Below are positions 12,349-30,356 of a DNA stretch of 35,347 bases, piece by piece (position 1 is the stretch's first letter; each line of letters starts with the position of its first letter). The stretch covers positions 1 to 35,347 of the forward strand of contig CANEWJ010000011.1 of NCBI GenBank assembly GCA_947442625.1. The letters run 5' to 3'. The position numbers and the translations under genes were made by a program. This DNA comes from Chitinophagaceae bacterium. GTDB taxonomy: Bacteria; Bacteroidota; Bacteroidia; Chitinophagales; Chitinophagaceae. Under the pieces are notes generated by a model. That model ran no database searches, was not told where the DNA came from, and worked only from the letters and a program-made list of their open reading frames with translations.

Positions 12349-12492
12349 GGTGATTTGCTTTTATTGATTGAATTGAAGTTAAAAATTATCTTGAAGAATT
12401 CTTAAAAGGAAGTGATTTATTTCTGCTCAATCATTCATTTTTAGGGATTTTTTGCGTATTTTAAGGTCAATTAACCCAAGCCAACGTTTGAT

Positions 12493-14154
12493 ATGAATCT
12501 TCATTTTGCCGATTATCTTGTTATTCTCATCTATTTCGTTTTTGTCGTTGCCGTAGGTGTTATCATCAAGAAAAAAATCACTTCCAGCAATGATTTTCTG
12601 AACAGCAACAAGAGCATACCCCTATGGATCACTTCGATTGCATTTATTTCTGCCAATCTTGGTGCCCAGGAGGTGCTGGGGATGGTGGCTTCAGGGGCCA
12701 AGTATGGCATCATGACGGTCCATTTTTATTGGGTGGGTGCCATCTTTGCCATGGTGTTTCTCGGTGTATTCATGATGCCATTCTATTACGGCAGCAAAGC
12801 AAGAAGTGTCCCGGAATATCTTTTTTTGCGGTTCGATGAAAAGACAAGGGCATTGAATGCACTCACATTTGCCGCCATGACCATTTTCTCTTCAGGGATT
12901 TCACTCTATGCATTGGCCAAACTATTGGAGGTTATCCTTCATTGGAATTTTGACCTCTGTATTTGGATTGCAGCGGGGATTGTCATGGCCTATACCTTGC
13001 TAGGGGGGCTTACCAGTGCAGTATACAATGAAGTGTTGCAGTTTTTTCTGATTGTACTGGGCCTATCGCCCCTGGTGATTGTTGCACTGCAAGATGCTGG
13101 TGGATGGGATACCATCAAAACAAACCTTGAACCGCAATTGACGCATGCATGGAAGTACATGGGTGATGCAGATGCCAACCCCATGGGCATCCATTTTATG
13201 TCATTGATATTTGGATTGGGTTTTGTCATGTCATTTGGCTACTGGTGCACAGATTTCCTTGTTGTCCAACGTGCCATGATCGCCAAAAACATGAGTGCTG
13301 CCCAACGCACACCAATCATCGCTGCCATCCCAAAAATGTTCATGCCGCTGATTGTTGTTCTCCCCGGTGTCATTGCCATTGCCTTGACCAAGTCAGCGTT
13401 GGATTCAGGCGATTACAGGATTCCAACCGATGCCACTGGTGGATACGATTATACCATGACCCTTCCTTCATTGATTGCACATTATTATCCCAGCGGTTTG
13501 TTGGGAGTAGGCATAACGGCATTGATTGCATCATTCATGAGCGGGATGGCAGGCAATGTAACGGCTTTCAATGCAGTGTTTACCTATGATATCTACCAGG
13601 CGTATTTCTTTAAAAACAAATCTGACAAGCATTACCTAAACGTCGGCAAGCTTGTTACCCTTTTTGGTATTTTGTTTTCCATTGGCACTGCTTATATCGC
13701 TGCCAGCTTCAACAACATCAATGATTTTCTTCAACTGGTGTTCAGCTTTGTCAATGGTCCTCTTTTTGCCACCTTCCTGTTGGGGATGTTCTGGAAAAGG
13801 ACAACCGGGCATGGTGCATTCTGGGGTTTGGTTGCTGGTACCCTTGCCGCAGCCATCACCCATGGCCTGACCATTGCTGAGGGAAAGGGTGGATGGATCT
13901 CCCCCATCTATCCCATCAGCAGCGGAATGGGCCAGGCATTCATTGTTGCTTCTTTTTCCTGGATGGCCAATTTCTTTACAACAATCGCCGTCAGCCTTGT
14001 TACCAAACCCAAGCCTGACGAGGAGTTAAGAGGATTGGTTTATTCGTTGACAGAAAAAGTATATGGCACTGAAAAGCGGTGGTACCTGAAGCCGGCGCCA
14101 TTGGGTATCATCTTGCTGGTCATCACTATTCTATTGAACATTATTTTCTTCTAA
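12493..14154 (+). CDS. Sodium:solute symporter (SSS family), probably for inositol or a sugar
   Basis: This 553-residue membrane protein has about 13-14 membrane segments and belongs to the SSS family (SGLT-like): ISANLGAQEVLGMVASGAKYG near residue 53, LGGLTSAVYNEVLQFF near 170, and GLGFVMSFGYWCTDFLVVQRA near 245, typical of the sugar/inositol branch. It imports its solute with sodium. The divergent inositol oxygenase suggests myo-inositol as substrate (inference). A 57-residue membrane protein gene begins 10 bases after its stop and an FNR-type reductase follows. I found no clear TAnnTTTG in front of it. Confidence 0.9.
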   Translation: MNLHFADYLVILIYFVFVVAVGVIIKKKITSSNDFLNSNKSIPLWITSIAFISANLGAQEVLGMVASGAKYGIMTVHFYWVGAIFAMVFLGVFMMPFYYGSKARSVPEYLFLRFDEKTRALNALTFAAMTIFSSGISLYALAKLLEVILHWNFDLCIWIAAGIVMAYTLLGGLTSAVYNEVLQFFLIVLGLSPLVIVALQDAGGWDTIKTNLEPQLTHAWKYMGDADANPMGIHFMSLIFGLGFVMSFGYWCTDFLVVQRAMIAKNMSAAQRTPIIAAIPKMFMPLIVVLPGVIAIALTKSALDSGDYRIPTDATGGYDYTMTLPSLIAHYYPSGLLGVGITALIASFMSGMAGNVTAFNAVFTYDIYQAYFFKNKSDKHYLNVGKLVTLFGILFSIGTAYIAASFNNINDFLQLVFSFVNGPLFATFLLGMFWKRTTGHGAFWGLVAGTLAAAITHGLTIAEGKGGWISPIYPISSGMGQAFIVASFSWMANFFTTIAVSLVTKPKPDEELRGLVYSLTEKVYGTEKRWYLKPAPLGIILLVITILLNIIFF

Positions 14155-15852: not shown

Positions 15853-16308
15853 TCAACGCCTTCTTCCGGTTCTGTTGATGAGCTTTGGGATGATGGTATC
15901 AAACCTTATTTGTTGTGCTGGCGTACAGAACTTGCGCAATTTTGTAAAGTGCATATAAGTCCTTGAATCAATTTCAAGGGTTTTTTTGCTGATCATCAGC
16001 AGGATATTTTCTGCAGTACTGTCCTCAAGACTTTTGTCCAATTGCAGGTAAAGGCTGTCTTTGAGTTGGCGAACATCACCCCACAATGGTTTCATGTCTT
16101 TGAAGTATTCTTCCTTCAGAACCTTGAATGTATCAATTTGGTCCTGTTCGAGGCCAACCTCGGCATACCAGGCAGAAACATCATTGCCTTTTCTTTTCTT
16201 TTCCATTGGATGATTGCCGGACTGCAGGAGGAGGTATCCGAGCAAAATATTGGAGGCAACCAAAATGATTACCAGAAAAAGCATCCACTTGTATCTTGTT
16301 TGGCTCAT
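15853..16308 (-). CDS. Membrane-anchored Spy/CpxP-like periplasmic protein
   Basis: A 151-residue protein with one N-terminal membrane anchor (about residues 8-28) and a helical, charged remainder with spaced Leu/Lys segments (DTFKVLKEEYFKDMKPLW, QLKDSLYLQLDKS) and a terminal TPAQQIRFDTIIPKL, the layout of the LTxxQ/metal-resistance (CpxP/Spy/CnrX) group. Such proteins sense or buffer periplasmic stress. Its ATG shares one base with the TAA of the preceding gene (TAATG), indicating translational coupling in the operon with the sigma factor. The metal or stress sensed cannot be told from the sequence. Confidence 0.75.
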   Translation of the reverse strand: MSQTRYKWMLFLVIILVASNILLGYLLLQSGNHPMEKKRKGNDVSAWYAEVGLEQDQIDTFKVLKEEYFKDMKPLWGDVRQLKDSLYLQLDKSLEDSTAENILLMISKKTLEIDSRTYMHFTKLRKFCTPAQQIRFDTIIPKLINRTGRRR

Positions 16309-16622
16309 TATGGTAGTTCGTTTGTTTCGTAAGGATTCAGGTCATGCTGCACATATTCAGCGGCAAGGGGCTGCCCCACATCATCCGTTGTATTCTTCTT
16401 GTTGACGCTTGTTACCAAGTAACCATTGATGGCGATGAAAAACAAGGCGATGGCCAATGCGAAGGCTGGGCGGGTGATGAACCGAAAAAATACCATCTCC
16501 GGCCTATTTTCCTCTTTTTTCATCCTGGCCTGAATCCTGGTGAAAAGAAAAGGAGACCCCTCTGCCCTTTGGATTCCCTCCAGGCTGTTGATGACTTCTT
16601 CTGATGTAAATTTCTTTTTCAT
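16308..16622 (-). CDS. Single-pass membrane protein, putative anti-sigma factor
   Basis: A 104-residue protein from the ATG at 16622; this start is preferred to an in-frame GTG at 16655 because an AAGGA-type ribosome site lies just before it. Residues ~1-45 are a charged cytoplasmic part (SLEGIQRAEGSPFLFTRIQARM), followed by one membrane segment near residues 50-67 and a short periplasmic tail. Its place directly after an ECF sigma gene and before a periplasmic Spy-like gene is that of an anti-sigma factor, though no ZAS/anti-sigma motif is visible. The role is inferred from position and topology. Confidence 0.65.
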   Translation of the reverse strand: MKKKFTSEEVINSLEGIQRAEGSPFLFTRIQARMKKEENRPEMVFFRFITRPAFALAIALFFIAINGYLVTSVNKKNTTDDVGQPLAAEYVQHDLNPYETNELP

Positions 16623-16670
16623 GTTTTCCTTCTTTATAGTAGATGCCTTTTTCACCAGGACATTGCGGTC

Positions 16671-17240
16671 CTAGTTCAAGTTATAAAAGTTTTTTAATAT
16701 TTCCTTTAGGTTTGTCTTTGCCCTGTGCAATAATGATTCAACGGCGGAAAGACTGGTTTTCATGATTTCGGCAACCTCTTGATAGCTTAATCCTTCCACC
16801 TTGTTGAGCACAAATGCAATCTGTTGATTTTCAGGCAATTCCTTGATTGCTTTGAAAAGAATGGTGGATTTCTCCCTGTTGTCCAGGGTTACGCCGGGGT
16901 GATGAAAATCAGCAAGTTCGATGGTGGGTTCATTGTTTTCACCCAAAATAGGGCTTAAAAAGCCAAATCTTTTTTTCCTTTTTTTTCTTCGGATAAACTC
17001 CAGGGCAGTAGTCACTGCTACCCGGTATACCCAAGTGGAAAGGGCAGATTCACCCTTGAATTGGTGGATCGACTCAAAAACCTTGATGAAAACATCCTGC
17101 GTCACATCTTCGGTGTCTTCATGGTTTTGCAGAAAACCCAACACTGTATTGAAAACAAGTGATTGCCGGGTTTCCACCAAATCCTTGAAGGCAAGGCCAT
17201 CGCCCGCTTTTAACCGCAATATCAGTTCCTGCTCAACCAA
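16671..17240 (-). CDS. ECF-type RNA polymerase sigma factor
   Basis: A 189-residue sigma-70-family protein with region 2 (DVTQDVFIKVFESIHQFK, STWVYRVAVTTALEFIRR) and region 4 (ELPENQQIAFVLNKVEGLSYQEVAEIM, SAVESLLHRAKTNLKEIL). The only sensible start is a TTG at 17240: the frame has a stop 12 bases upstream and no internal Met until well into region 2. It heads a three-gene operon with a membrane protein and a Spy-like periplasmic protein, so it probably responds to an envelope signal. A weak TACCTTTA on the minus strand about 25 bases upstream could be its -7 element. Confidence 0.92.
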   Translation of the reverse strand: MVEQELILRLKAGDGLAFKDLVETRQSLVFNTVLGFLQNHEDTEDVTQDVFIKVFESIHQFKGESALSTWVYRVAVTTALEFIRRKKRKKRFGFLSPILGENNEPTIELADFHHPGVTLDNREKSTILFKAIKELPENQQIAFVLNKVEGLSYQEVAEIMKTSLSAVESLLHRAKTNLKEILKNFYNLN

Positions 17241-17393: not shown

Positions 17394-18293
17394 ATGGCTT
17401 CATTTCAATGGAAAGGTGTTTTTCCCGCCTTGCTTACTCCTTTTGATGCCGATGACCAGGTAGACCTTGCTATGTATGATAAAAATTTGGATGCCCAAGT
17501 GGAGGCTGGAATACATGGAATCATCATTGGGGGCTCCTTAGGGGAGGCGAGTACACTCAGCTTGGAGGAGAAAGAGCTGCTGGTAAGGTTTTCTGTAAAA
17601 AAGCTTGCTGGAAAACTGCCTGTAATCATGAACATTGCGGAAGGTTCCACCAGGGAAGCCATCCAACAAGCAATTTTTGCGAAAGAATGGGGTGCTGATG
17701 GCATCATGCTGCTTCCCCCCATGCGCTATAAAGCAGACGACAGGGAGGTTGTGGAATTTTTCAAGGCGGTAGCCGCCAATACTGAGCTGCCCATCATGAT
17801 TTACAACAATCCGGTGGATTATAAGATTGATGTTACCCTTGATATGTTTGAAGAATTGTCATCTATTCCCCATATCAATGCCATCAAGGAATCCACCCGT
17901 GATGTTACCAATATTACCCGTTTAAAGAACAGGTTTGGTGATCGATATGCCGTACTCTGTGGCGTGGATCCTTTGACCATAGAAGAATTGGCCCTGGGCG
18001 CAGATGGTCTGGTGGCAGGTTTGGTGGATGCATTTCCAAAGGAAACCGTGGTCATGTACACCCTCGTAAAAGAAGGAAAGTTAGCGGAGGCCATCAAGAT
18101 CTACCGTTGGTTCATGCCCCTGCTTGAGCTGGACATCCATCCCAAACTGGTGCAATACATCAAGTTGGCTGCTGCCCAAACGGGTATTGGTACTGAGCAC
18201 GTGCGTGCACCACGCTTGCCATTGGTTGGTGAAGAGCGGGAAAGAATCCTCAAGGTCATCAATGATGGCATTGCAACCAGGCCAGTGCGCTAA
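17394..18293 (+). CDS. DapA-family enzyme, probable delta1-pyrroline-4-hydroxy-2-carboxylate deaminase
   Basis: A 299-residue class I aldolase-fold protein of the dihydrodipicolinate synthase family. The Schiff-base Lys is K165 (NAIKESTRD) and the Tyr of the catalytic triad is Y137 (MIYNNP). The phosphate-loop region reads GGSLGEAS instead of the GTTGE of true DapA, so lysine synthesis is unlikely. Immediately downstream is an alpha-ketoglutarate-semialdehyde dehydrogenase, and the window also holds a hydroxyproline epimerase and a D-amino-acid dehydrogenase. That context points to the deaminase that turns pyrroline-4-hydroxy-2-carboxylate into alpha-ketoglutarate semialdehyde. A keto-deoxy-sugar dehydratase (for example of the arabinonate pathway, which also ends in that semialdehyde) is the main alternative. 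Confidence 0.8.
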   Translation: MASFQWKGVFPALLTPFDADDQVDLAMYDKNLDAQVEAGIHGIIIGGSLGEASTLSLEEKELLVRFSVKKLAGKLPVIMNIAEGSTREAIQQAIFAKEWGADGIMLLPPMRYKADDREVVEFFKAVAANTELPIMIYNNPVDYKIDVTLDMFEELSSIPHINAIKESTRDVTNITRLKNRFGDRYAVLCGVDPLTIEELALGADGLVAGLVDAFPKETVVMYTLVKEGKLAEAIKIYRWFMPLLELDIHPKLVQYIKLAAAQTGIGTEHVRAPRLPLVGEERERILKVINDGIATRPVR

Positions 18294-18347
18294 CAACAAA
18301 TCAAGGTATTGCCTTCAAGGGGGATGCCAAGAAAAATAAATTATACC

Positions 18348-19805
18348 ATGTTTTCAGATGCAACCATAGAACAGGTGAATGATGCCATGATTCAATCTGG
18401 CAAGGCTTTCAAGACGTATTCCAAATCCTCATTGGAACAGCGTGCCAGTCTCATGCGCGCCATCGCAACAGAGATTGAGGCATTGGGTGATGCACTCATC
18501 GAAGTGACCATGAGGGAAACCAATCTTCCTGAAGCAAGGCTGAAGGGAGAGCGGGGGAGAACCATGTACCAGTTGACCAGTTATGCTGATGCCTGCGAAA
18601 AAGGCGATTGGCTTGAAGCAAGGATCTGCACGGCCCTCCCAGACAAAGTACCTGCAAGACCTGATATCAGGAAAATGTTGGTTCCATTGGGTCCAGTGGT
18701 GGTCTTTGGCTCAAGCAATTTCCCTTACGCGTACTCCACTGCAGGTGGAGACACGGCTTCCGCCCTTGCCGCTGGTTGTACCGTGGTGGTCAAGGCACAT
18801 CCTGCTCATCCGGAAACATCAGCCATGGTTGCGGGTGCCATCAGCAAGGCCCTCACAACAATGGAGATGTCTCAAGATATCTTTATTCATCTCAATGGGG
18901 CCTCCCATGCAGTGGGAGAGGCACTCGTAAAACATGAGCAGGCAAAAGCTGTTGGGTTCACTGGTTCTTTCACCGGGGGAATGGCATTGTTCAAATGGGC
19001 CAACCAAAGAAAAGAACCGATCCCCGTTTTTGCAGAAATGGGCAGTGTCAATCCGGTATTTTTATTGGAAGAAAAATTGTCTTCAGATCCAGCAGGCATC
19101 GCCAAGATGTATGCAGATTCCATCAGCCTGGGTGTAGGACAGTTTTGCACCAACCCCGGCATCATCATCGGCATTGACTCCGCAGCATTGCAGGCGTTCA
19201 TATCCTTTTTGGGAGAAAAAATGGATGCCATCACCGTAGGTAAAATGCTGCATCAGGGCATTGCTGATGCATATGTCCAAAAAGCGGCAACAATACTCCA
19301 GCATGCTGATGTTTCAATTGTTTCTTCATCTGTGGATGCTGCAAGTTTGTTGGCTCCCAGGCCCATCATCGCTTCCGTATCTGCAACTGCATTTTTAGAG
19401 AATCCATCCTTGAAGGAAGAAGTATTTGGACCATTTTCTCTGGTAGTGGTTTGCAACAGCGCCGAAGAAATGAAGGCTGTTGCAGCGGCAATGGATGGCC
19501 AACTCACCTCAACCATCATGGCAACAGAAAACGAGGCTTTGGCCAACACGGAAATCATTGATTTGGTGGCAGAAAAATGTGGCAGGATCATCATGAACGG
19601 AGTTCCTACTGGTGTAGAGGTTTGTTATGCCATGCAACATGGTGGGCCTTTCCCCGCATCTACAGATCCAAGGTTCACCTCCGTTGGGCCGGATGCCATC
19701 AAGCGCTTTGCCCGTCCCATGTCTTTCCAAAACTACCCCGATGCATTGCTGCCTGATGAATTGAAAAGCGAAAATCCGTTGATGATCCATCGAATCATCG
19801 AATAA
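18348..19805 (+). CDS. Alpha-ketoglutarate-semialdehyde (2,5-dioxovalerate) dehydrogenase
   Basis: From the ATG at 18348 this is a 485-residue aldehyde dehydrogenase; the frame extends upstream to an ATG at 18324, but MFSDATIEQ fits the usual start of the family. The catalytic residues are C267 (VGQFCTNPG) and E230 (FAEMGSVNP), and GSSNFPYAYSTAGGDTASALAAG is typical of the NADP-dependent 2,5-dioxovalerate branch. It oxidises alpha-ketoglutarate semialdehyde to alpha-ketoglutarate. It follows the DapA-family gene by 54 bases, so the two carry out the last two steps of hydroxyproline breakdown. Confidence 0.88.
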   Translation: MFSDATIEQVNDAMIQSGKAFKTYSKSSLEQRASLMRAIATEIEALGDALIEVTMRETNLPEARLKGERGRTMYQLTSYADACEKGDWLEARICTALPDKVPARPDIRKMLVPLGPVVVFGSSNFPYAYSTAGGDTASALAAGCTVVVKAHPAHPETSAMVAGAISKALTTMEMSQDIFIHLNGASHAVGEALVKHEQAKAVGFTGSFTGGMALFKWANQRKEPIPVFAEMGSVNPVFLLEEKLSSDPAGIAKMYADSISLGVGQFCTNPGIIIGIDSAALQAFISFLGEKMDAITVGKMLHQGIADAYVQKAATILQHADVSIVSSSVDAASLLAPRPIIASVSATAFLENPSLKEEVFGPFSLVVVCNSAEEMKAVAAAMDGQLTSTIMATENEALANTEIIDLVAEKCGRIIMNGVPTGVEVCYAMQHGGPFPASTDPRFTSVGPDAIKRFARPMSFQNYPDALLPDELKSENPLMIHRIIE

Positions 19806-19813
19806 ACAAGCAC

Positions 19814-21544
19814 ATGAGAAGCATCTTTTTTGCCTTCTTGTTTTTTGCCCATTTTTCTCATGCGCAAACAACACCTGAGCCTTCACATCCTTTATTGAAA
19901 TCAGCCCTGAAAAAAATTGCAGCCTTCAATGAGCAGGAAAGAAAGCTGGACCTGGCTGCTGGCTTTCCACTGGGTTTGCATGGAGAAGCTGAAGCCAAAA
20001 GAAGGCATGATTTTTTTGTTGGCTTGGAGAAGGAAATCAGGTCGATTGATACCCGTCAATTGGACTTTACAGACGAGATCAATGCCGCTTTGCTGTTGTA
20101 TAGTTTTGAAGATGATATTTCTGATTTTAAATATGCTTCCTACCTCAATCCTATTCTTTCAGAAGGAGGATTCCATACGAATATTACAGGTATTGCCAGT
20201 GCAAGGATCAACAGTTTGAAAGATGCAGAAGACTATATCGCCAAGCTGAATGATTTGCCCCGTTACATGGAAGAACATTTTAGCCTTATGAGGAAAGGGC
20301 TTGCGGTTGGTATCGCACAACCCTATGATGTTGTAGCGCAGATCTCCAATACCTATGAAGTACACATTGTTACAGACCCCGAGGCTTCATCCTTTTGGAG
20401 GCCATTCGCAAAAAAGCCTGCAGGTATTGCTGATCCTGCATGGAAGGAAACGCTCCAGAAAGGCCGCCAGGCCATCCTTTTCAGTGCCGTTGTTGCTTAC
20501 AAGAATGTCAAGTCTTTTTTTGAAAACGAATATTTGGCCAAGGCCCCCAAGAAACCCGGGGCACAATTTTTCCCATCTGGTTTGGCTTTTTATGAGGAAA
20601 GGGTCAAGCATTTTACCACCACTGATCTGGGCTATGATGCTATCTACACTATTGGATTGAAAGAAGTGGCACGCATCAAACTGGCCATGGAAGAAGTGAA
20701 ATCACAGGTAGGTTTTCAGGGCGACATGAAGGCATTTATCCTATCGCTGAGAACAGATCCCCAATTCTATCCCACCAGTGGAGAAGCGCTCTTGAAAGAG
20801 GCCTCGTACATTGCCAAAAAAATTGATGGAAAACTGCCCACCCTTTTTGGTAGGCTTCCCCGTCAGCCTTATGGCGTAGAACCAGTGCCATCAGAGATAG
20901 CGCCAACCTATACGGCAGGGAGGTATTCCCCTGCACCCATCAAAAGCACCAGGTCCGGGAACTATTGGGTCAATGTGTACAACCTGCCTTCAAGAAGTCT
21001 TTACACATTAGAGGCGCTCACCTTGCATGAGGCCGCACCAGGCCATCATCTTCAAATGGCACTTACACAGGAGCTTGAAAACCTTCCCAATTTTCGCAGG
21101 AATCTCTATGTCAATGCCTTTGGTGAAGGCTGGGGATTGTATGCAGAATCCCTGGGGTATGACATTGGGCTTTACAAAGATCCTTACAGCCGGTTTGGAC
21201 AATTGACCTACGACATGTGGAGGGCCTGCAGGCTGGTGATTGATGTTGGTCTTCATGCCAAAGGCTGGAGCAGGGATCAGGCTGTGTCTTACCTTGCAGA
21301 CAATACCGCTCTTTCTTTGCATGAAGTCAATACAGAAATCAACCGGTATATTGCCTGGCCCGGTCAGGCATTGGCCTATAAAATGGGTGAGTTAAAAATC
21401 AAGGAGCTGCGCAAACGGGCAACATCAGCGCTGGGAGATAAATTTGATATCAGGCAGTTTCACGATCTGCTGCTTTCCGAAGGAACCCTCACCTTGCGAT
21501 TGATGGAAAAACTGGTTGATAGGTACATCGAAACAACCAAATAA
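19814..21544 (+). CDS. Secreted DUF885 protein, metallopeptidase-like
   Basis: A 576-residue protein with a signal peptide (MRSIFFAFLFFAHFSHAQ). It belongs to DUF885: the hallmark HEAAPGHHLQ is at 405-412 and EGWGLYAES follows with E438, an arrangement resembling a zinc metallopeptidase site (His/Glu pair, His, then a distal Glu). The first part (25-330) is helical. It starts 8 bases after the dehydrogenase stop, so it shares the hydroxyproline operon; secretion and the peptidase-like site suggest release of peptides or amino acids outside the cytoplasm, but the activity is not proven. Its last 85 bases overlap the convergent sterol-desaturase-family gene. Confidence 0.85.
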   Translation: MRSIFFAFLFFAHFSHAQTTPEPSHPLLKSALKKIAAFNEQERKLDLAAGFPLGLHGEAEAKRRHDFFVGLEKEIRSIDTRQLDFTDEINAALLLYSFEDDISDFKYASYLNPILSEGGFHTNITGIASARINSLKDAEDYIAKLNDLPRYMEEHFSLMRKGLAVGIAQPYDVVAQISNTYEVHIVTDPEASSFWRPFAKKPAGIADPAWKETLQKGRQAILFSAVVAYKNVKSFFENEYLAKAPKKPGAQFFPSGLAFYEERVKHFTTTDLGYDAIYTIGLKEVARIKLAMEEVKSQVGFQGDMKAFILSLRTDPQFYPTSGEALLKEASYIAKKIDGKLPTLFGRLPRQPYGVEPVPSEIAPTYTAGRYSPAPIKSTRSGNYWVNVYNLPSRSLYTLEALTLHEAAPGHHLQMALTQELENLPNFRRNLYVNAFGEGWGLYAESLGYDIGLYKDPYSRFGQLTYDMWRACRLVIDVGLHAKGWSRDQAVSYLADNTALSLHEVNTEINRYIAWPGQALAYKMGELKIKELRKRATSALGDKFDIRQFHDLLLSEGTLTLRLMEKLVDRYIETTK

Positions 21545-22737
21545 GCACCTACCAGATAGGGGATGGAAGCATGGTATTTTTCTGCACCAAACCACCCACC
21601 GGTACTGTAGACCAGGAAGATGGCAGTGATACATTTTATTCCCTCCCAAACAAAGGCATATTTATCTCCATCCATCATTGAGGTCAGTGCATAGATGTAA
21701 AGGAAGATGAACAATCCATAAAGGAAAATTCCTGGGCTGCCGATGTCAGCAAGGTTTCCAAAGAGATATGAAATAAAAAGCAGGAGAAAAACCAGTTGGA
21801 TCATTGCCCAGGCCCTGAGCCCTGTGCTGCTGGGTGGACCGTATTTCTCGAACGCATAGACATCCTCAATTTTTTTTAGCGGATATTTCTCCATCATGTC
21901 TGCTGGTCTCCATCCCGTTGGCATGAACCAGATCCTGGCCTTGTCCATCCAGTGGCTTGTTCTCCAGGCATCAGCCACCAAACCCAACATGTGTTGAAAA
22001 TTGATTTTGATGGGGTTCCATGTGGCAACGGGATGCGTGATCCCATAGACCGGAGGAATGTCTTTGCGCTCTTCCTGGAAACTGCCAAAAAGCTTGTCCC
22101 ATACAATGAAAACCTGTGAATAGTTTTTATCGATGTATTCAGGGTTGATGGCATGGTGAACCCTGTGGTGCGATGGGGTTACAATGATTTTCTCTAAAAC
22201 ACCCATCCTGCCAATGTGTTGTGTATGGTACCAGAACTGAATAAACAGGTGAAGCGGTGCAACAATGGCAATCACATTGCCCGGTACGCCGAGCAAGGCT
22301 GCTGGCAAGAGAAAAAACGTGAACAATTTGAAAAAAACGGAGATGCTTTGCCTCAGGGCACAGGCCAGGTTGAACTCTTCACTGCTGTGGTGAATGATAT
22401 GGGCATTCCAGAATATATTGGTAGTGTGTTGAATCCTGTGTATCCAATAACCAGAGAAATCAAGTGCAATAAAGGCGATGACATATACAGCCAGGCCTTC
22501 TTCAATCCTGGTGATGGCCAGATTCCTGACCATCCAGCCATAACTGATGATGGCCACACTAAGGCCCAATACATCCTTGGTAACATTGGTGATGCCAGAT
22601 GCAAGTGATGAAACCATGTCCATGGTCCTTACCGTGTCATGGCCTTTCCTCCAGCCATACCATTTTTCCAGCAACACCAAGAGCAGGAATATCGGCATGG
22701 CGATCAATAAAATCTTACCATAAGTCTCCATATACAA
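21460..22737 (-). CDS. Sterol desaturase/fatty acid hydroxylase-family membrane protein
   Basis: A 425-residue integral membrane protein. The histidine clusters for a di-iron site are clear: HRIQHT and HIIHHSSEEFN (about 110-130) and HTQHIG with PSHHRVHH (about 180-205). The N-terminal part has four membrane segments, and a second hydrophobic block (about 310-400) gives a C-terminal extension beyond the core domain. Family members hydroxylate or desaturate lipids or isoprenoids with O2. It interrupts the two plus-strand hydroxyproline units and overlaps the DUF885 gene by 85 bases at the 3' end. It starts 46 bases from the epimerase gene, divergently. A link to hydroxyproline use is not evident. 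Confidence 0.88.
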   Translation of the reverse strand: MYMETYGKILLIAMPIFLLLVLLEKWYGWRKGHDTVRTMDMVSSLASGITNVTKDVLGLSVAIISYGWMVRNLAITRIEEGLAVYVIAFIALDFSGYWIHRIQHTTNIFWNAHIIHHSSEEFNLACALRQSISVFFKLFTFFLLPAALLGVPGNVIAIVAPLHLFIQFWYHTQHIGRMGVLEKIIVTPSHHRVHHAINPEYIDKNYSQVFIVWDKLFGSFQEERKDIPPVYGITHPVATWNPIKINFQHMLGLVADAWRTSHWMDKARIWFMPTGWRPADMMEKYPLKKIEDVYAFEKYGPPSSTGLRAWAMIQLVFLLLFISYLFGNLADIGSPGIFLYGLFIFLYIYALTSMMDGDKYAFVWEGIKCITAIFLVYSTGGWFGAEKYHASIPYLVGAYLVVSMYLSTSFSINRKVRVPSESSRS

Positions 22738-22783
22738 CCAATTAGATTTCCAATTTCGTTCATTTTATTTAAATTGTACACCT

Positions 22784-23836
22784 ATGTCTACCCAACCCCT
22801 TTCTCTTTTGTTGAATCATGCAACACACCAGTTGTCTGGTCATGTTTTTGAGTGTGTTGATGCCCATACCTGTGGCAACCCTGTGCGGTTGGTCGTCTCA
22901 GGCGGACCTGCATTAGAAGGCAACAACATGAGTGAGAAAAGGCAGCATTTTTTGCGCGAATTTGATTGGATAAGAAAAGGGTTGATGTTCGAACCCCGGG
23001 GCCACGACATGATGAGCGGTAGCATCCTTTATCCACCGCATGATCCTGAGAATGATTTTGCCGTGCTGTTTATTGAAACCAGTGGTTGTTTGCCCATGTG
23101 TGGCCATGGTACCATCGGAACCATCACAGCAGCCATTGAATCGGGGCTCGTAAAGCCCAAGGTCAGTGGAAAAATAAGGATGGAAGCGCCGGCCGGGCTG
23201 GTGCAGATTGAATACACAATGACTGGTGATAAAGTCAGTTCTGTCAGACTCACCAATGTTCCAGGATACCTGGACCAGGCTGATTTGGCGGTGGATTGCC
23301 CTGGGCTTGGAAGCATCAGGGTGGATGTTGCTTACGGCGGAAATTTTTATGCCATTGTTGATGTGCAGGAAAACTTCCCTGGCTTGGAACATTTTACTGC
23401 AGACCAGCTCATCAGCATGGCAAGGCAACTCAGGAAAAATATCAATGCAAAATACACATTCGTGCATCCGGAAGATCCAACGATCAATGGGTGTAGTCAT
23501 ATCCTCTGGTGTGGTGTCGTCATCGATCCCACGTCTACGGCACGCAATGCTGTCTTCTATGGCGACAAGGCCATCGACCGTTCACCCTGCGGAACAGGCA
23601 CCAGTGCCCGCATGGCGCAATGGTATGCCAAAGGGATGTTGAAAAAAGGCGATGCATTCATCCACGAAAGCATCATTGGAAGCAGGTTCATCGGCCGCAT
23701 AGAAGAAGAAACTGCTGTCAATGACAAGCCCGCCATGCGCCCCTCCATTGAAGGATGGGCCAAAATTTACGGACACAATACCATTTCCATCGACCTTGAA
23801 GACGACCCCTATGCACATGGGTTTCAAGTTATCTAA
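22784..23836 (+). CDS. 4-Hydroxyproline 2-epimerase (proline racemase family)
   Basis: A 350-residue protein of the proline racemase superfamily. Both catalytic cysteines are present, C106 in PMCGHGTIG and C269 in DRSPCGTGTSARMA, so it is a racemase/epimerase and not a hydroxyproline dehydratase, in which one Cys is replaced by Thr or Ser. It should convert trans-4-hydroxy-L-proline to cis-4-hydroxy-D-proline, the first catabolic step. Proline racemase is possible from sequence alone, but the nearby D-amino-acid dehydrogenase, deaminase and semialdehyde dehydrogenase favour hydroxyproline. It is the first gene of a run that continues into two glycosidases, with 9 bases to the next ATG. Confidence 0.88.
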   Translation: MSTQPLSLLLNHATHQLSGHVFECVDAHTCGNPVRLVVSGGPALEGNNMSEKRQHFLREFDWIRKGLMFEPRGHDMMSGSILYPPHDPENDFAVLFIETSGCLPMCGHGTIGTITAAIESGLVKPKVSGKIRMEAPAGLVQIEYTMTGDKVSSVRLTNVPGYLDQADLAVDCPGLGSIRVDVAYGGNFYAIVDVQENFPGLEHFTADQLISMARQLRKNINAKYTFVHPEDPTINGCSHILWCGVVIDPTSTARNAVFYGDKAIDRSPCGTGTSARMAQWYAKGMLKKGDAFIHESIIGSRFIGRIEEETAVNDKPAMRPSIEGWAKIYGHNTISIDLEDDPYAHGFQVI

Positions 23837-23845
23837 AATGTGATT

Positions 23846-26224
23846 ATGAAAAAAAACGTTCTATTTATCTTGTGCATGATTACAGGATCAGTGTATTCCC
23901 AACAAAGTGATTTGTTGCGATATGATAAACCCGCTTCATTTTTCGAGGATGCTCTCCCCATTGGCAATGGGCGCATCGGTGGAATGGTTTACGGGGGAAT
24001 CAGCAAAGACCGCATATCATTGAACGAAGCAACCCTTTGGGCTGGTTATCCGGTAGATGCCAACATGAATCCAGATGCCAAAAAGTACCTTCCTTTGGTG
24101 AGATCAGCACTTTTCGCAGGCGATTATAACAAGGCCGACAGCCTCGTAAAATTCATTCAGGGCAAATTCTCTGCCTCATATGCCCCGCTTGGAAATCTTC
24201 TCATGAATTTCAACATCAACGAAATTTCCAATTATTCGAGGGTGCTGGACATGAGCAGGGGCGTAGTCAATGTTTTTTTTGAAGCGGACGATACAAAATA
24301 TGCTCGTACGTATTTTGTGTCTTATCCTGATCAACTGATGTTTGTAAAACTCAGTGCCAAGGGGAAGAACAAGATGAATGTGGAACTAACCCTGAATAGT
24401 TTACTTCAACACAAAGCAATGATTTCTCCAGCAGGCCTGGTGATGAATGGAATGGCACCATCCCTTGCTGAGCCAAGCTATCGTGGTAACATGCCCAATG
24501 CTGTGCAGTACGACAGTGCCAATGCCATGCGGTTTGCCGGTATAGTTAAAGTCTTGTCCAACAATGGAAAACAAATCAATACTGATTCCTCAGTTCAACT
24601 TTCTGGTGCAACAGAAATATTGGTGGCTGTATCAATGGGAACCAGTTTCAATGGTTTTGACAAGCATCCGGTGAATCAAGGCAAAAATGAGAAAAGGATG
24701 GCGGAGGAGCCATTGCAAAAACCTGGCTTGGAAAACTACGACCTGGTCCTCAAAAAACATACAGCTGATTTTTCAAAATATTATCAACGTGTTTCCTTGG
24801 ACCTGGGAAAATCAGCTGCCCAGCTGTTGCCGGTTGACCAACGCCTGAAAAACTTTGCGAAAGGTGGGACTGATAATGCTTTGGTGGCTTTGTATTTTCA
24901 ATTTGGCCGATACCTGATGATCAGTTCTTCACGTACTCCAGAAGTGCCCATCAACCTGCAAGGGATCTGGAATGAGCAGGTCCGTCCTCCTTGGAGCAGC
25001 AATTATACGATCAACATCAATACAGAAATGAATTACTGGCCTGTTGAGACCACCAATCTCTCTGAGTTTCACCAGCCCATGATGGGATTCATCAAAAACC
25101 TGAGCAAGACTGGCGCCATTACTGCAAATTCATTCTATGGTATGGATGGATGGGTAGCACACCACAACTCTGACATTTGGGGCATTTCAAATCCAGTGGG
25201 TGACTTTGGAAAAGGAAAGCCTGTTTGGGCCAACTGGACAATGGGTGGAACATGGATGAGCACCCATCTTTGGCAACATTTCCTTTTTTCCAACGATACG
25301 GCATTTCTCAAAAGGGACGCTTATCCAATCATGAAGGGAGCTGCCCTGTTCTGCCTGCAATTTCTAGTGAAAGATCCCAAGGGGAGTCTGGTGACAGCTC
25401 CTTCAACCTCTCCTGAAAATATATTCGTTACAGATAAAGGGTTTAAAGGTGCAGTTCTTTTTGGAGGAACTGCCGATCTCGCCATGATCCGTGAATTGTT
25501 TTCCAATGTCATAGCTGCCGACAAACTGTTGAAAAAAGATCCCGTTTTTTCCAATCAATTGAAGGATGCACTTAAGAACCTGCATCCATATCAAATTGGC
25601 AGCAAGGGAAACCTGCAGGAATGGTACTATGATTGGGCAGACAATGATCCGAACCACAGGCATGTTTCCCATCTCTTTGGACTATATCCTGGGGCCTCAA
25701 TAACCATGTCTAAGCAACCTGCATTGGCCAACGCTGTCAAACGATCCCTTGAGTTGCGCACCAACAATGGAACGGGTTGGTCCATCGCTTGGAAGATCAA
25801 CCTCTGGGCAAGATTGCAGAATGGTGAGCGGGCCTATGATGCCATCAAGAGCATCCTTACCTATTATCCTTCAGACCGCAACGAAGTCAAAATGGCCGGA
25901 GGCGGAACCTATCCGAATCTGTTTGACGCTTGCCCTCCTTTTCAGATTGACGGCAACTTTGGTGCAACCGCAGGGATTGCGGAAATGCTGATGCAGAGCC
26001 ATGATGGTGAAATCCTGTTGCTGCCTGCTTTGCCTGTGGAGTGGCCAACGGGTGCTGTCAAAGGATTGAAGGCAAGGGGCAATTTAACCGTTGATATTGC
26101 ATGGGAAAATGGAAAACTCAAGAAAGCGGTTGTTACCCCATCAAAGTCCATCAATAAGCAGGTCAGGTATGGTGATAAAACATGGCAGATCAGTTCCAAT
26201 AAACCACTCCTCATCCAATTCTAA
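23846..26224 (+). CDS. Secreted GH95 alpha-L-fucosidase/alpha-L-galactosidase
   Basis: From the ATG at 23846 (an in-frame GTG at 23840 is less likely) this is a 792-residue protein with a signal peptide ending near VYSQQ. GH95 features appear in order: the N-terminal beta domain ([14 protein letters not shown]), the (alpha/alpha)6 barrel with asparagines N390 and N392 ([12 protein letters not shown]), the catalytic acid E524 (TSPENIF), and D702 in [12 protein letters not shown]. The residue two before N390 is Thr388, where typical fucosidases have His, which hints at alpha-L-galactosidase activity. It removes terminal alpha-L-fucose or L-galactose from plant glycans in the periplasm or outside. 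It is flanked by the hydroxyproline epimerase and a GH127 gene. Confidence 0.92.
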
Positions 26225-26241
26225 ATCAACAAACTTTTATT

Positions 26242-28209
26242 ATGTCTACCATCAGGATTTTTACTACAGTATTGTTCATGCTTGTTTCCTTTTGGGGGAA
26301 TGCCCAGCAGGCCAGTGTTCATATCAGCCCTGTCAACTTTTCAAAGGTGGTCATCAATGATGATTTTTGGAAACCCAAAATTGACAAGGTGGCTACCAAA
26401 ACCCTGGATGCCTGTGTTTACCAAACCGAAGTGAATACCGGAAGGATCCGAAATTTTGAAAAGGCAGCAAGGGCAAAGGGGGAAAAACACGAAGGGATTT
26501 TTTATGATGATTCCGATGTTTACAAAGCAATTGAAGCAATGGCTTATGCCATTAAGCTCACGGGGAATAAAGCACTTGAACAAAAAGCAGATGAGTGGAT
26601 TGACAAGATCGCTGCAGCACAGCAAGCGGATGGGTACCTCAATACCTACTATACCCTCACTGGATTGGACAAGCGTTGGTCTGACATGGACAAGCACGAA
26701 GATTATTGTGGCGGACACATGCTGGAAGCCGCAGTAGCTTATTTCGATGCAACAGGAAAGAAGAAATTACTTGAAGTAAGCAAACGTTGGGCTGATCATT
26801 TTGATGCAACATTTGGTCCAGGAAAAAGAAACTGGGTAACAGGTCACCAGGAGCTGGAGCTGGCACTGGTTAAATTGTACAAGACCACAGGAGAAAAAAG
26901 ATACCTCAAATTGGCCGACTGGCTGCTGTCTGAAAGAGGAAAGAACCATGGCGTAGGCAGTCAATGGAAAAATGGCAAGGGTACCGATTATTCCCAAGAC
27001 CTGCTTCCGGTGAAGGAACAGTCAGAAATAACAGGACATGCAGTGCGCGCCATGTATCTCTATACCGGCGCGGCAGATGTGGCTGCACACACCGGAGACC
27101 AAGACTACTTGTTGGCCATGAGAAGGGTATGGCAGGATGTGGTTTTTCGCAACATGTATATTACGGGTGCCATAGGTTCTGCAGGAAAGAACGAAGGCTT
27201 TTCTAAGGACTATGATTTGCCCAATGAACAGGCCTATTGTGAAACATGTGCCTCTGTGGGCATGGTGTTCTGGAACCAGCGCATGAACAGCCTTACAGGT
27301 AAAGCTGAATACATCGATGTACTGGAAAGAAGTTTATACAACGGTGCATTGGATGGACTTTCATTGAGTGGTGATCGTTTTTTCTATGGCAATCCACTGG
27401 CCTCACAGGGCAATCACAACCGCAGGGAATGGTTTGGCACTGCATGCTGTCCATCCAATATTGCAAGATTGATTGCTTCGGTCGGCGGGTATGTTTATGG
27501 CCAGGAAAGCAATACCATCTACATCAATCTTTTTGTGGGCAGTGAATCTTCATTTGATCTGGCATCATCAACCATGAAAATAAAAACATCAACTTCTTAC
27601 CCATGGCAAGGAAATGTTAGCTGCAGTATTTCCATGAGTAAAAAAGAAAAAGCGGCTATTGCATTCAGGATTCCAGGGTGGCTCAGGAATACGCCAGCAC
27701 CTGGCAATCTTTATTCATTCCTTAACCAATCAAATGCTGCGCCAACAGTACTTGTCAATGGCAAATTGGTTGCATTCAAAGAAGAGAACGGTTATGCCGT
27801 CATTGAAAAAGAATGGAAAGATGGTGATAAGGTAGAATACACAATGCCCATGGAAGTGCGCAAAATCGGCGCAACAAAAGAGCTTGTTGACAACAATCAT
27901 CGGATGGCACTGCAACGCGGTCCACTTGTTTATTGCATTGAGGGTGCAGACAACAATGGAAAAGCATGGAATATTTTTTCCCCAGTAACTGCCAAGTTTG
28001 AGACGGAAAATTTTAATGTGCTTGATGAAAAAGTAATCAGCCTTGTTTCAACATTGCCTGTTTTACAAATTGATGCTGATGGACAATCAACCAAAACCGT
28101 AAACCAAAAAGTGCGCGCAATTCCGTATTATACGTGGTGTAACCGGGGAAGCAATCCCATGCAGGTATGGTTGCCAACAGTATACAAGGACATCAAAATA
28201 AATTACTAG
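26242..28209 (+). CDS. Secreted GH127-type beta-L-arabinofuranosidase
   Basis: A 655-residue protein (DUF1680/GH127) with a signal peptide ending near GNAQQ. The zinc-thiolate active site of HypBA1-type enzymes can be matched: E334 and C336 in CETCASVG, the nucleophile C402 with C403 in GTACCPSNI, and the general acid/base E318 sixteen residues before E334. It has the (alpha/alpha)6 barrel (about 60-430) followed by beta-sandwich domains. Characterised GH127 enzymes cleave beta-L-arabinofuranose linked to other arabinose or to hydroxyproline in extensin-type proteins. It lies 17 bases after the GH95 gene, in a run with hydroxyproline catabolic genes. GH146 or another related family cannot be ruled out. 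Confidence 0.9.
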   Translation: MSTIRIFTTVLFMLVSFWGNAQQASVHISPVNFSKVVINDDFWKPKIDKVATKTLDACVYQTEVNTGRIRNFEKAARAKGEKHEGIFYDDSDVYKAIEAMAYAIKLTGNKALEQKADEWIDKIAAAQQADGYLNTYYTLTGLDKRWSDMDKHEDYCGGHMLEAAVAYFDATGKKKLLEVSKRWADHFDATFGPGKRNWVTGHQELELALVKLYKTTGEKRYLKLADWLLSERGKNHGVGSQWKNGKGTDYSQDLLPVKEQSEITGHAVRAMYLYTGAADVAAHTGDQDYLLAMRRVWQDVVFRNMYITGAIGSAGKNEGFSKDYDLPNEQAYCETCASVGMVFWNQRMNSLTGKAEYIDVLERSLYNGALDGLSLSGDRFFYGNPLASQGNHNRREWFGTACCPSNIARLIASVGGYVYGQESNTIYINLFVGSESSFDLASSTMKIKTSTSYPWQGNVSCSISMSKKEKAAIAFRIPGWLRNTPAPGNLYSFLNQSNAAPTVLVNGKLVAFKEENGYAVIEKEWKDGDKVEYTMPMEVRKIGATKELVDNNHRMALQRGPLVYCIEGADNNGKAWNIFSPVTAKFETENFNVLDEKVISLVSTLPVLQIDADGQSTKTVNQKVRAIPYYTWCNRGSNPMQVWLPTVYKDIKINY

Positions 28210-28242
28210 GACCAATTGGAGAAGGACAATTCCTAATTCAAC

Positions 28243-28250
28243 TAACTTTG
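28243..28250 (+). promoter_or_regulatory. -7 element before the D-amino-acid dehydrogenase gene
   Basis: TAACTTTG matches TAnnTTTG and ends 14 bases before the ATG at 28265. The nearest TTG is 24 bases upstream (28216-28218), rather far for a -33 element. The flavoenzyme may thus have an added promoter inside the larger run. Confidence 0.5.
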
Positions 28251-28264
28251 GAAAAAAGGAAAAC

Positions 28265-29506
28265 ATGAGCAAGGTTATCGTAGCAGGTGGGGGTGTAATT
28301 GGGCTGTGTACAGCCTATTACCTGAACAAAGCTGGCCATGAAGTAATCTTGATTGACAAGGGAGACCTGAAACATGGTACATCTTTCGGCAACGCAGGAT
28401 ACATTTCGCCCAGTCATTTTATTCCGCTTGCCTCGCCCGGTATTGTTGCCAAGGGTTTGCAGTGGATGCTGAGCTCCAGTTCACCTTTTTACATCAAGCC
28501 CAGGCTCAACATGGATCTTATCCGATGGGCACTGACCTTCTGGAAAAGGTCCGGCAAGGCTACAATGGAAAGAAATATCCCTCATCTCAACAATATTCTT
28601 CACCTGAGCCGTGAACTCACTTCGGAAATCCGTAACGATTTGGGCAATCAATTCCGGATGGAGGAAAAGGGATGTTTTATGCTCTATAAAAGTGCCCTGA
28701 CTGAAAAGCATGAGATTGAATTGGCAAAGGAGGCAGCGGCATTGAATATTGAAACCAAAGTGTTCAGCGCAAAAGAGGTCCAGGCCATGGAGCCAGCGGT
28801 GGAGGTCAATGTAAGGGGAGGGGTTTTGTATCCCATTGATGCCCATTTGCATCCTGGCGATTTGATGAAAACCATTCACGATCATTTGCAGCAGTCGGGG
28901 GTACAATTTCAGCTGGAAACCACCATTACTGGATTTGAAAAACACGGAAGAAAAGTAACCAAGGTATTGACAGATAAAGGGGATTTTTCCGGAGATGAGA
29001 TTATTTTGGCCACAGGCTCATGGCTGCCCGTAACCAGCCGAGACCTTGGTATAAACCTTCTTCTCCAAGCGGGTAAAGGGTATAGCATGACTTTCGATGC
29101 CGTTGAAAAAAACCTTCATTATCCTGCAATCCTTGTCGATGACAGGGTGGCAATGACGCCAATGGGTGCTGATCTTAGGATGGGCGGAACCATGGAAATC
29201 AGTGGTATCGGCTCACCCATGCTGATGAAAAGGGTTCAGGCCATTTTCAAGGCTGCAAAAAATTATTATCCGGATCTCCCTGTAAGTTTTCCTGCCCAGG
29301 ACAAGATTTGGCATGGACTGAGGCCTTTGAGTCCAGACGGTCTTCCTTATATTGGCCGGCATTCATCATTTGATAACATCGTCATGTCAGGTGGCCATGC
29401 GATGCTTGGCCTCTCTCTTGCAGCGGCATCAGGGAAGTTGGTAGAAGAGATTGTTGGCGGGCGAGATACAAGTATTGACATCAGTGCATTTAATGTAGAA
29501 CGATAA
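28265..29506 (+). CDS. D-amino-acid dehydrogenase-type FAD oxidoreductase, probable cis-4-hydroxy-D-proline dehydrogenase
   Basis: A 413-residue DadA/DAO-family flavoprotein. The FAD fold is at the N-terminus (VIVAGGGVIGLCTAYYL, then Asp in LIDKGD), HGTSFGNAGYISPSH follows, and the C-terminal block reads HGLRPLSPDGLPYIGRH and GHAMLGLSLAAASG. It should oxidise cis-4-hydroxy-D-proline, made by the epimerase upstream, to delta1-pyrroline-4-hydroxy-2-carboxylate, passing electrons to the respiratory chain or O2. Bacterial D-hydroxyproline dehydrogenases are either multi-subunit or single-chain; no small partner subunits are next to it, so it would be the single-chain type. D-proline or D-alanine as substrate is possible. 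Confidence 0.87.
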   Translation: MSKVIVAGGGVIGLCTAYYLNKAGHEVILIDKGDLKHGTSFGNAGYISPSHFIPLASPGIVAKGLQWMLSSSSPFYIKPRLNMDLIRWALTFWKRSGKATMERNIPHLNNILHLSRELTSEIRNDLGNQFRMEEKGCFMLYKSALTEKHEIELAKEAAALNIETKVFSAKEVQAMEPAVEVNVRGGVLYPIDAHLHPGDLMKTIHDHLQQSGVQFQLETTITGFEKHGRKVTKVLTDKGDFSGDEIILATGSWLPVTSRDLGINLLLQAGKGYSMTFDAVEKNLHYPAILVDDRVAMTPMGADLRMGGTMEISGIGSPMLMKRVQAIFKAAKNYYPDLPVSFPAQDKIWHGLRPLSPDGLPYIGRHSSFDNIVMSGGHAMLGLSLAAASGKLVEEIVGGRDTSIDISAFNVER

Positions 29507-29522
29507 AAAATAAATCAAGTAT

Positions 29523-30356
29523 ATGAAAAAATCAATGTTATTGTTTTTATTGGTGATGGGTATGGTATCAGGTGCAATGGCCCAAAGCCTCAACAAATTA
29601 TGGGCTACCGATACCACCCTGAAAGTTCCTGAATCTGTGCTGCTGGACAGCAAGAACCAGCGTTTGTATGTTACCAATATTGATGGCAAGGGCCCCTGGG
29701 ACAAAGATGGCAAAGGGTCTATTTCATTGCTAACCCTTTCCGGAAAAATCCTTAATCCCGATTGGATCAAAGGATTGCATGCCCCCAAAGGCATGACCAT
29801 GTTCAGTGATTTTCTGGTTGTAGCGGATGTCGATTCAGTTGTAATCATTGAGGTTACCAAGGCACAGATTGTAAAAAAGCTTTACATCGAAGGGGCAAAA
29901 GCATTGAATGACATCACATCAGACAAGCGTGGCAACATGTACGTGTCAGATTCCAAGACCCAAAAAATCCATTTTATTGATATAGATAAGCTGGAAGCCA
30001 GTTTGTTTGCTGAGGGGCTCAAAGGCTTGAATGGCCTGCATTATGTTGACAAGACCTTGTACTTTACAGATGCTGGTGCACTTTACAAATTTGGGAAAGA
30101 CAAATCAAAAATACTGATCACTGAAGGCATGGAAGGCGGCACCGATGGCATAGAACAAGTAGATGAAAATACTTTTCTAGTTTCCTGCTGGGCAGGTTCT
30201 ATATGGTTGGTAAAAATGAATGGTGAAAAGAAATTGTTGCTGGATACCAGGAAAGAGGGCATAAATACTGCTGACATTGGGTACGATAAGAAAAATAAAA
30301 TTGTTTATGTTCCTACATTTTGGAAGAACCATGTGGTTGCTTACCAGCTCCAATAA
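29523..30356 (+). CDS. Secreted SMP-30/gluconolactonase-like beta-propeller protein
   Basis: A 277-residue protein with a signal peptide (MKKSMLLFLLVMGMVSGAMAQ). The rest is a six-bladed beta-propeller with repeated YVTN, MYVSDSKTQKIHFID and LYFTDAGALYKF strands. Candidate metal ligands of SMP-30 lactonases are seen in PESVLLD, LNDITSD and GTDGIEQ. It begins 17 bases after the flavoenzyme and ends before a strong terminator, so it is the last gene of the run. Lactonase activity, for example on a sugar lactone from arabinose or galactose, is possible, but many secreted Bacteroidota members have no known role. Confidence 0.75.
   Translation: MKKSMLLFLLVMGMVSGAMAQSLNKLWATDTTLKVPESVLLDSKNQRLYVTNIDGKGPWDKDGKGSISLLTLSGKILNPDWIKGLHAPKGMTMFSDFLVVADVDSVVIIEVTKAQIVKKLYIEGAKALNDITSDKRGNMYVSDSKTQKIHFIDIDKLEASLFAEGLKGLNGLHYVDKTLYFTDAGALYKFGKDKSKILITEGMEGGTDGIEQVDENTFLVSCWAGSIWLVKMNGEKKLLLDTRKEGINTADIGYDKKNKIVYVPTFWKNHVVAYQLQ

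Follow-up and report, generated by a model that had tools for sequence, protein, structure and literature searches.

Genes for the catabolism of 4-hydroxyproline (Hyp) and genes of arabinofuranosidase families are genetically joined in the family Chitinophagaceae, and this joining is recurrent. We describe it from a 35,347-nucleotide stretch of a Chitinophagaceae bacterium (hereafter the window: contig 11, CANEWJ010000011.1, of GCA_947442625.1, a source genome of 2.6 Mb in 211 contigs, 92 percent complete), in which genes of glycoside hydrolase families 127 (GH127) and 95 (GH95) stand between the genes for a 4-hydroxyproline epimerase and a DadA-type flavoenzyme. The comparisons below suggest that many Bacteroidota, in lakes and elsewhere, carry arabinose-stripping enzymes beside their Hyp catabolic genes, with one locus for both halves of a glycoprotein. 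Hydroxyproline-rich glycoproteins (HRGPs) are a large store of carbon and nitrogen in plant and green-algal walls, where arabinose chains protect the protein, and we consider it likely that the locus serves their utilisation.

The locus consists of two runs on the plus strand. The first (17394-21544) encodes a DapA-like protein, an aldehyde dehydrogenase and a DUF885 protein; the second (22784-30356) encodes the epimerase, GH95, GH127, the DadA-like flavoenzyme and a 277-aa protein. Gaps between genes are 3 to 55 bases in both runs (3, 17, 55 and 16 bases in the second), and the runs are split by an antisense FA_hydroxylase gene at 21460-22737. An original prediction, made from the letters of the window, had proposed a locus for plant extensin and other HRGPs; profile matches, coordinates of open reading frames (ORFs) and residues confirm all the genes it named at the positions it gave, and the DUF885 and antisense FA_hydroxylase genes are two locus features beyond those it described.

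Conservation of the linkage

The comparison set comprised 294 genomes of the window's family, searched for the epimerase and for GH127 at 1e-60 in both cases. The epimerase was found in 139 genomes, a GH127 relative in 144, and both in 108. Neighbourhoods of up to 20 kb, shorter on small contigs, were taken round one epimerase place per genome (138 plus the window), so that neighbourhood counts are lower bounds. The relatives' genes were called as simple longest ORFs and grouped by single linkage, each group being named from one scanned representative, with not all small ORF groups scanned. The GH127 group combines proteins of the window type with longer ones of ~805 aa, GH146 was identified from one representative on the basis of domain content and a match to BT0349, and two of the 139 epimerase places that lack a grouped epimerase ORF (L142, L158) were kept in the denominators.

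GH127 occurs in 44/139 neighbourhoods, GH146 in 32/139, and one or the other in 55/139, spread over 30 of 58 genera; about 6/139 would be expected if each genome held an assumed 10 copies in 4.5 Mb. In the subset with at least 5 kb on both sides, the linkage is found in 46/101 neighbourhoods and 25/46 genera. GH51 is present in 10/139. GH127 and GH146 stand together in 21/139 neighbourhoods from 14 genera, a co-occurrence that speaks for HRGP utilisation; members of both families are known to remove arabinose from Hyp-linked chains (available part of PMC10850190). Peptidases occur in 34/139 neighbourhoods (five ORF groups from four families: two DUF885, Xaa-Pro aminopeptidase, S9/DPP IV and M1), an amino-acid permease in 14/139, and araA and araB (FGGY kinase) in 5/139 each. 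The nearest named loci by GH127 belong to a Chitinophagaceae metagenome genome, Tobar2m (95 percent), and the bin ErkenSummer (93 percent), both probably from lake samples, and the joined locus is also found in Lacibacter luteus (L236) and in records of Ferruginibacter (L216) and Terrimonas (L247).

A similar picture emerges from a second family of the class, with 111 genomes. The epimerase is found in 36 of its genomes, and a PF07944 gene lies within 10 kb of it in 12/36, against 0.35 expected from copy numbers and rounded genome sizes. GH95 served as a control: it is present in 77/111 of these genomes versus 54/111 for PF07944, and none of the 74 GH95 places listed (of 103 counted) in the epimerase-bearing genomes lies less than 28 kb from the epimerase. 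Whole-genome co-occurrence, uncorrected for kinship or genome size, runs the same way: GH127/PF07944 is found in 108/139 genomes with the epimerase versus 36/155 without it in the window's family, in 31/36 versus 23/75 in the second family, and, class-wide, PF07944 is found in 12/17 epimerase genomes versus 12/230 others. Whether the glycosidases stay with the epimerase in related genomes had been set beforehand as a test of the original prediction; GH127/GH146 are retained in the 30 of 58 genera and in this second family.

The linkage has changed state repeatedly. Label changes were counted on FastTree trees from which unlinked rows with less than 5 kb on either side had been dropped, and on which HypBA1 and other references form long branches. 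On the epimerase tree (109 rows) 27 changes are needed, of which well-supported branches force 13, and the GH127 tree (92 rows) has 6, all forced; placement of an arabinosidase strictly between epimerase and DadA genes has 17 changes, 9 forced (106 rows). Before the short-flank rows were dropped the counts were 31 (16 forced) and 10 (8 forced), which are too high since loci on short contigs are scored as unlinked, as in genome G250, where GH127 is on another contig (L174). An origin of the linkage in a single clade was rejected on the strength of at least 13 forced changes on the epimerase tree and 6 on the GH127 tree. In a careful tree of 24 rows, linkage labels were not clustered beyond shuffles.

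The slot between epimerase and DadA genes

Epimerase-DadA pairs were usable in 111 neighbourhoods (28/139 have none), and exclusion of five with DadA upstream left 106 ordered pairs on the same strand. The two genes are directly adjacent in 50 pairs and have intervening genes in 56, all co-directional in 53/56. Such direct adjacency suggests that the DapA-family, aldehyde dehydrogenase and DadA genes go with the epimerase rather than the glycosidases; their ORF groups are found in 108/139, 101/139 and 116/139 epimerase neighbourhoods, respectively. GH127, GH146 or GH51 is among the inserts in 35/56 pairs from 17 genera, and these families supply 52 of the 113 inserted genes (29 GH127, 20 GH146, 3 GH51). 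The other inserts are GH5/GH2-like (10), aldose 1-epimerase (10), GtaA-like (8), Gfo/Idh/MocA (8), amino-acid permease (5), metallo-beta-lactamase-fold (4), a small unnamed ORF group (4), melibiase-like (3), GH95 (2) and seven singles.

Two kinds of cargo merit separate description. A GH5/GH2-like TIM-barrel protein (L200:3564-4613 and relatives) occurs in 10/139 epimerase neighbourhoods from 7 genera, its representative having no sequence match among solved structures. A GtaA-like six-hairpin protein (L050:4894-7293; DUF4964/DUF5127) likewise occurs in 10/139 neighbourhoods from 7 genera, and no solved-structure relative of its representative was found by sequence. The cargo slot is also a source of candidate new glycosidases of these two types.

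Hydroxyproline pathway enzymes

The epimerase scores 588.9 bits against the NCBIfam 4-hydroxyproline epimerase model NF010578, above the curated cut-off of 376, and has both catalytic cysteines, in MCGHG and SPCGTG. Assignment as a proline racemase or 3-Hyp dehydratase was rejected, the corresponding NCBIfam scores being far under their curated cut-offs. For the DadA-type, DapA-family and aldehyde dehydrogenase proteins, none of the NCBIfam equivalogs shown is over its cut-off, and the FAD oxidoreductase reaches 267 bits against the D-amino acid dehydrogenase model (cut-off 383). Their genes are linked alongside that of the epimerase, so that the gene set of the pathway is present, and the three are assigned as candidates by family, residues and context. 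The DapA-family enzyme has Lys165 in KEST, which we take to be the Schiff-base residue, and the aldehyde dehydrogenase has Glu230 and Cys267, numbered from the ATG start at 18348; these residues and the cysteine pair of the epimerase are as the original prediction had described them.

The GH127 enzyme

The window GH127 has the PF07944 catalytic domain (348.6 bits), and Pfam finds both accessory domains, giving the three-domain architecture. It was aligned with HypBA1 using the residue numbers that we take to be those of the zinc ligands and catalytic residues of that enzyme. The zinc ligands (Glu, Cys, Cys, Cys), nucleophile Cys and acid/base Glu are all present, bearing out an earlier description of the zinc-thiolate site as intact, as are the four HypBA1 substrate residues H142, Y145, H194 and R273. 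Across 108 rows, with the window among them and gaps scored as misses, each site residue is conserved in 106 to 108. The zinc site (Glu-Cys-Cys-Cys) and the substrate residues of GH127 are both named in the available part of PMC10850190.

Among solved structures, a sequence search ranks 6ex6 (487 bits) and 4qjy (474.5) above HypBA1 (353.5) and 5mqo (266.7). The AlphaFold2 model (mean predicted local distance difference test score 81.8, several loops near the active site being low) is matched best by BT3674 (6ex6; template modelling score 0.87), then by Ara127N (4qjy) and HypBA1, with BT_1003 (5mqo) last among GH127 structures. An aceric acid hydrolase of the BT1003 type was rejected: NF049879 gives 426.4, its cut-off being 950, and among GH127 entries BT_1003 ranks last by sequence as well as by structure. 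The BT3674/Ara127N ranking and the low aceric acid hydrolase score make a beta-L-arabinofuranosidase likelier than an aceric acid hydrolase. Sequence and model together indicate that the protein is probably a beta-L-arabinofuranosidase, and it is a candidate for HypBA1-like action on Hyp-linked chains.

GH95 and accessory genes

The GH95 protein has its three-domain architecture over Pfam cut-offs, with BH0842 (2rdy) as its best PDB match (719.6 bits), and is a candidate enzyme of the fucosidase or L-galactosidase type. The original prediction had treated it as part of the locus, which does not hold for a fixed part: GH95 is found in only 6/139 epimerase neighbourhoods, is not near the epimerase in the second family among the places listed, and is absent, with the DUF885 gene, from the close relative L177, where GH127 and all four pathway genes are retained. 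GH95 is variable cargo. At the contig start, a fragment at 2-673 matches the C-terminal region of a GH95-type protein of 1355 aa (L152, 44 percent) and has no Pfam match of its own.

The DUF885 protein carries HEAAPGHH, presumably a metallopeptidase motif. Two DUF885 ORF groups are found in 26/139 neighbourhoods, and besides L177 the near relative L180 is without the gene. The divergent FA_hydroxylase-family gene stands directly before the epimerase in many relatives, its ORF group being found in 47/142 loci, and the group of the 277-aa protein is found in 24/142. A lactonase assignment for the latter was rejected, since its SGL score is 15.8 bits, under the cut-off of 26.3. Signal-peptide-like starts of the GH95, GH127, DUF885 and 277-aa proteins were judged by eye, with no predictor.

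Table 1. Features of the hydroxyproline-glycosidase locus in the window
Feature	Coordinates	Strand	Evidence
ECF (extracytoplasmic function) sigma factor, candidate regulator, upstream of first run	16671..17240	-	PF08281, PF04542
DHDPS-family enzyme, candidate deaminase of the cyclic Hyp imine (LhpC-type)	17394..18293	+	PF00701 208.9 bits
Aldehyde dehydrogenase, candidate alpha-ketoglutarate semialdehyde dehydrogenase	18309(TTG)/18348(ATG)..19805	+	PF00171
DUF885 protein, putative metallopeptidase, signal-peptide-like start	19814..21544	+	PF05960 510.5 bits; HEAAPGHH
FA_hydroxylase-family membrane protein, divergent from epimerase	21460..22737	-	PF04116
4-Hydroxyproline 2-epimerase	22784..23836	+	PF05544; NF010578 588.9 bits vs cut-off 376
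GH95 glycosidase, signal-peptide-like start (candidate fucosidase or L-galactosidase type), variable cargo	23840..26224	+	PF22124 589.7 bits
GH127 glycosidase, signal-peptide-like start, probable beta-L-arabinofuranosidase	26242..28209	+	PF07944 348.6 bits and both accessory domains
DadA-type FAD oxidoreductase, candidate cis-4-hydroxy-D-proline dehydrogenase (LhpB-type)	28265..29506	+	PF01266
277-aa protein, signal-peptide-like start, weak SGL/NHL similarity	29523..30356	+	SGL 15.8 bits, below cut-off 26.3

A proposed route for glycoprotein use and its alternatives

In the scheme that we propose, secreted or periplasmic glycosidases of variable kind (here GH127 and GH95; in relatives GH146, GH51, GH5-like and others) would strip hydroxyproline of its shielding L-arabinofuranose chains, peptidases would free it from the glycoprotein, and it would then be imported into the cytoplasm, a step that we infer. 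There, the epimerase would convert Hyp to cis-4-hydroxy-D-proline, the flavoenzyme would oxidise this to the cyclic imine, the DapA-family enzyme would yield alpha-ketoglutarate semialdehyde, and the aldehyde dehydrogenase would produce alpha-ketoglutarate. The pathway chemistry is established for these enzyme families; that these particular proteins perform the scheme, their common induction, and the exact glycoprotein are inferred. As to the substrate, the joining of Hyp catabolism and arabinosidases put forward in the original prediction stands, and its choice of extensin specifically is one possibility among several: the GH127 is nearer to BT3674 and Ara127N than to HypBA1, and arabinogalactan proteins (AGPs) or green-algal HRGPs are candidate substrates that fit as well as extensin. 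For lake bacteria, green-algal HRGP walls would be no less plausible than plant extensin as the source.

Several observations weigh against HRGP utilisation as the role of the locus. In the stretch covered, 84/139 epimerase neighbourhoods have neither GH127 nor GH146; together with the 50/106 pairs without inserts, this indicates that Hyp use can be independent of these glycosidases. Seen from the GH127 side (the best 80 of 324 loci, with translations taken from best tblastn segments), 28/80 of the nearest named loci have the epimerase or DadA and 52/80 do not in the stretch covered; with 5 kb on both sides, 16/52 are linked and 36/52 are not. L218, L245 and L253 are GH51-GH127-GH146-araA clusters free of Hyp genes, which indicates that GH127 of the window kind serves plain arabinoside use too. 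In the congener G053 (L173), GH127 is flanked by the same two genes, FA_hydroxylase and NHL-type, with no epimerase or DadA gene there, and its genome has no epimerase match at 1e-60. The source genome holds a single PF07944 glycosidase over the cut-off, and neither an L-arabinose isomerase gene (araA) nor GH51 was found in it. No Hyp importer is evident at the locus, and SusC and SusD are likewise missing there, as stated in the original prediction, none being found among the 30 window ORFs that were profile-scanned; in the relatives' neighbourhoods SusC is present in 15/139 and SusD in 7/139.

Three other explanations were considered. The epimerase-DadA gap might be an insertion hot spot that tolerates cargo with no functional coupling, as could be argued from the variation of cargo among near relatives (such as the absence of GH95 from L177) and from the 21/56 inserts without GH127, GH146 or GH51, which include a lone aldose epimerase in genus g85, a Gfo protein in g91 and a metallo-beta-lactamase-fold protein. 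However, the cargo is non-random, with 52/113 inserted genes from the three arabinosidase families; arabinosidase genes are also found on other sides of the Hyp operon; and GH95, although present in more second-family genomes (77/111 vs 54/111), is not near the epimerase among the matches listed. We therefore regard a hot spot as unlikely.

A different proposal is that the glycosidases serve arabinose alone and are drawn not to Hyp but to the DapA-family and aldehyde dehydrogenase genes, which would also finish an oxidative L-arabinose route; that route would end in alpha-ketoglutarate semialdehyde, an intermediate common to the Hyp route. It gains from the araA-less source genome, which encodes a second IlvD/Edd protein (859.7 bits against an L-arabinonate dehydratase cut-off of 882) beside a GntP-type permease, and from the absence of araA from the five congeners identified here with epimerase and GH127 (G000, G139, G203, G250, G286) and from G053. 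Yet in 35 pairs the arabinosidases lie between the epimerase and DadA genes, the two that are specific to Hyp, araA and araB are near the locus in 5/139 relatives, and the peptidases and permeases are consistent with protein as the source, which leaves this proposal very improbable. Least probable of all is that the substrate is arabinogalactan or arabinan, with Hyp taken from another source such as collagen. The nearest solved structure, BT3674, is a helper in larch arabinogalactan breakdown (available part of PMC10850190), which speaks for it; against it, AGPs are themselves rich in Hyp, no collagenase-type family was found among the window genes and those neighbour representatives that were scanned (not every neighbour), and the linkage of Hyp genes to glycosidases would need another reason.

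HRGP utilisation as the role of the locus can be extended to the fate of the arabinose. A widespread Bacteroidota locus might use both halves of the glycoprotein and, in the window's lineage, L-arabinose (via arabinonate) and Hyp might meet at alpha-ketoglutarate semialdehyde and share the same aldehyde dehydrogenase; we hold this extended version to be doubtful. araA is present in 10/41 members of the genus, and no arabinose dehydrogenase was identified in the source genome.

Other features of the window

A myo-inositol oxygenase gene divergent from a sodium:solute symporter gene (11464-14154) is perhaps an inositol uptake pair. The symporter (12493-14154) is not supported as a locus member: the homologues adjacent to araA share 25-27 percent identity with it, and it adjoins the oxygenase. 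At 15853-17240 lie the ECF sigma factor and two small genes with no Pfam match; an AraC-type regulator is found in 42/139 epimerase neighbourhoods, and the window has the ECF sigma factor set in its place. No GH121 or GH43 partner was found among the 30 window ORFs scanned, the source genome not having been searched for them.

Comparison with known systems

The lhp operons encode an epimerase, a D-Hyp dehydrogenase, an imine deaminase and a semialdehyde dehydrogenase. The window has the same four enzymes and differs by the glycosidase genes between those of the epimerase and dehydrogenase. On the sugar side, HypBA1-HypBA2-HypAA of Bifidobacterium longum and XeHypBA/XeHypAA of Xanthomonas euvesicatoria use arabinofuranosidases (GH127, GH146) for Hyp-linked arabinose. 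According to the available part of PMC10850190, a B. longum GH127 acts on the arabinose chains of extensin-type glycoproteins and a GH146 on Hyp-linked arabinose, and Araf-beta-Hyp is the main substrate of a Xanthomonas GH146. Next to the Xanthomonas arabinofuranosidase genes lies a prolyl oligopeptidase pseudogene (available part of PMC6085000); the word 'epimerase' has 0 occurrences in the main text of that paper. Both systems have been described for the sugar, and the window locus adds the Hyp pathway.

Polysaccharide utilisation loci of Bacteroidota for rhamnogalacturonan I (BT0349, GH146) and arabinogalactan (BT3674, GH127) contain the same glycosidase families (available part of PMC10850190); the window, in contrast, is without SusC/SusD and has an amino-acid pathway at its core instead of a sugar pathway. 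HRGP degradation has been proposed for Latescibacteria, in which GH127 was inferred to attack green-algal wall extensin; the proposal names arabinose release, and the available part of PMC4454575 describes no Hyp pathway or joint locus. In our searches of the open-access literature, with subscription papers mostly uncovered, we found no account of a single locus linking GH127, GH146 or extensin to 4-hydroxyproline epimerase or Hyp catabolism. As a genetic marker, the joined operon points to bacteria that might consume the HRGP molecule in full, and joined loci indicate which GH127 and GH146 enzymes are candidates for activity on Hyp-linked arabinose. The bacterial systems that we found described deal separately with sugar and imino acid; the recurrent operon described here joins both.

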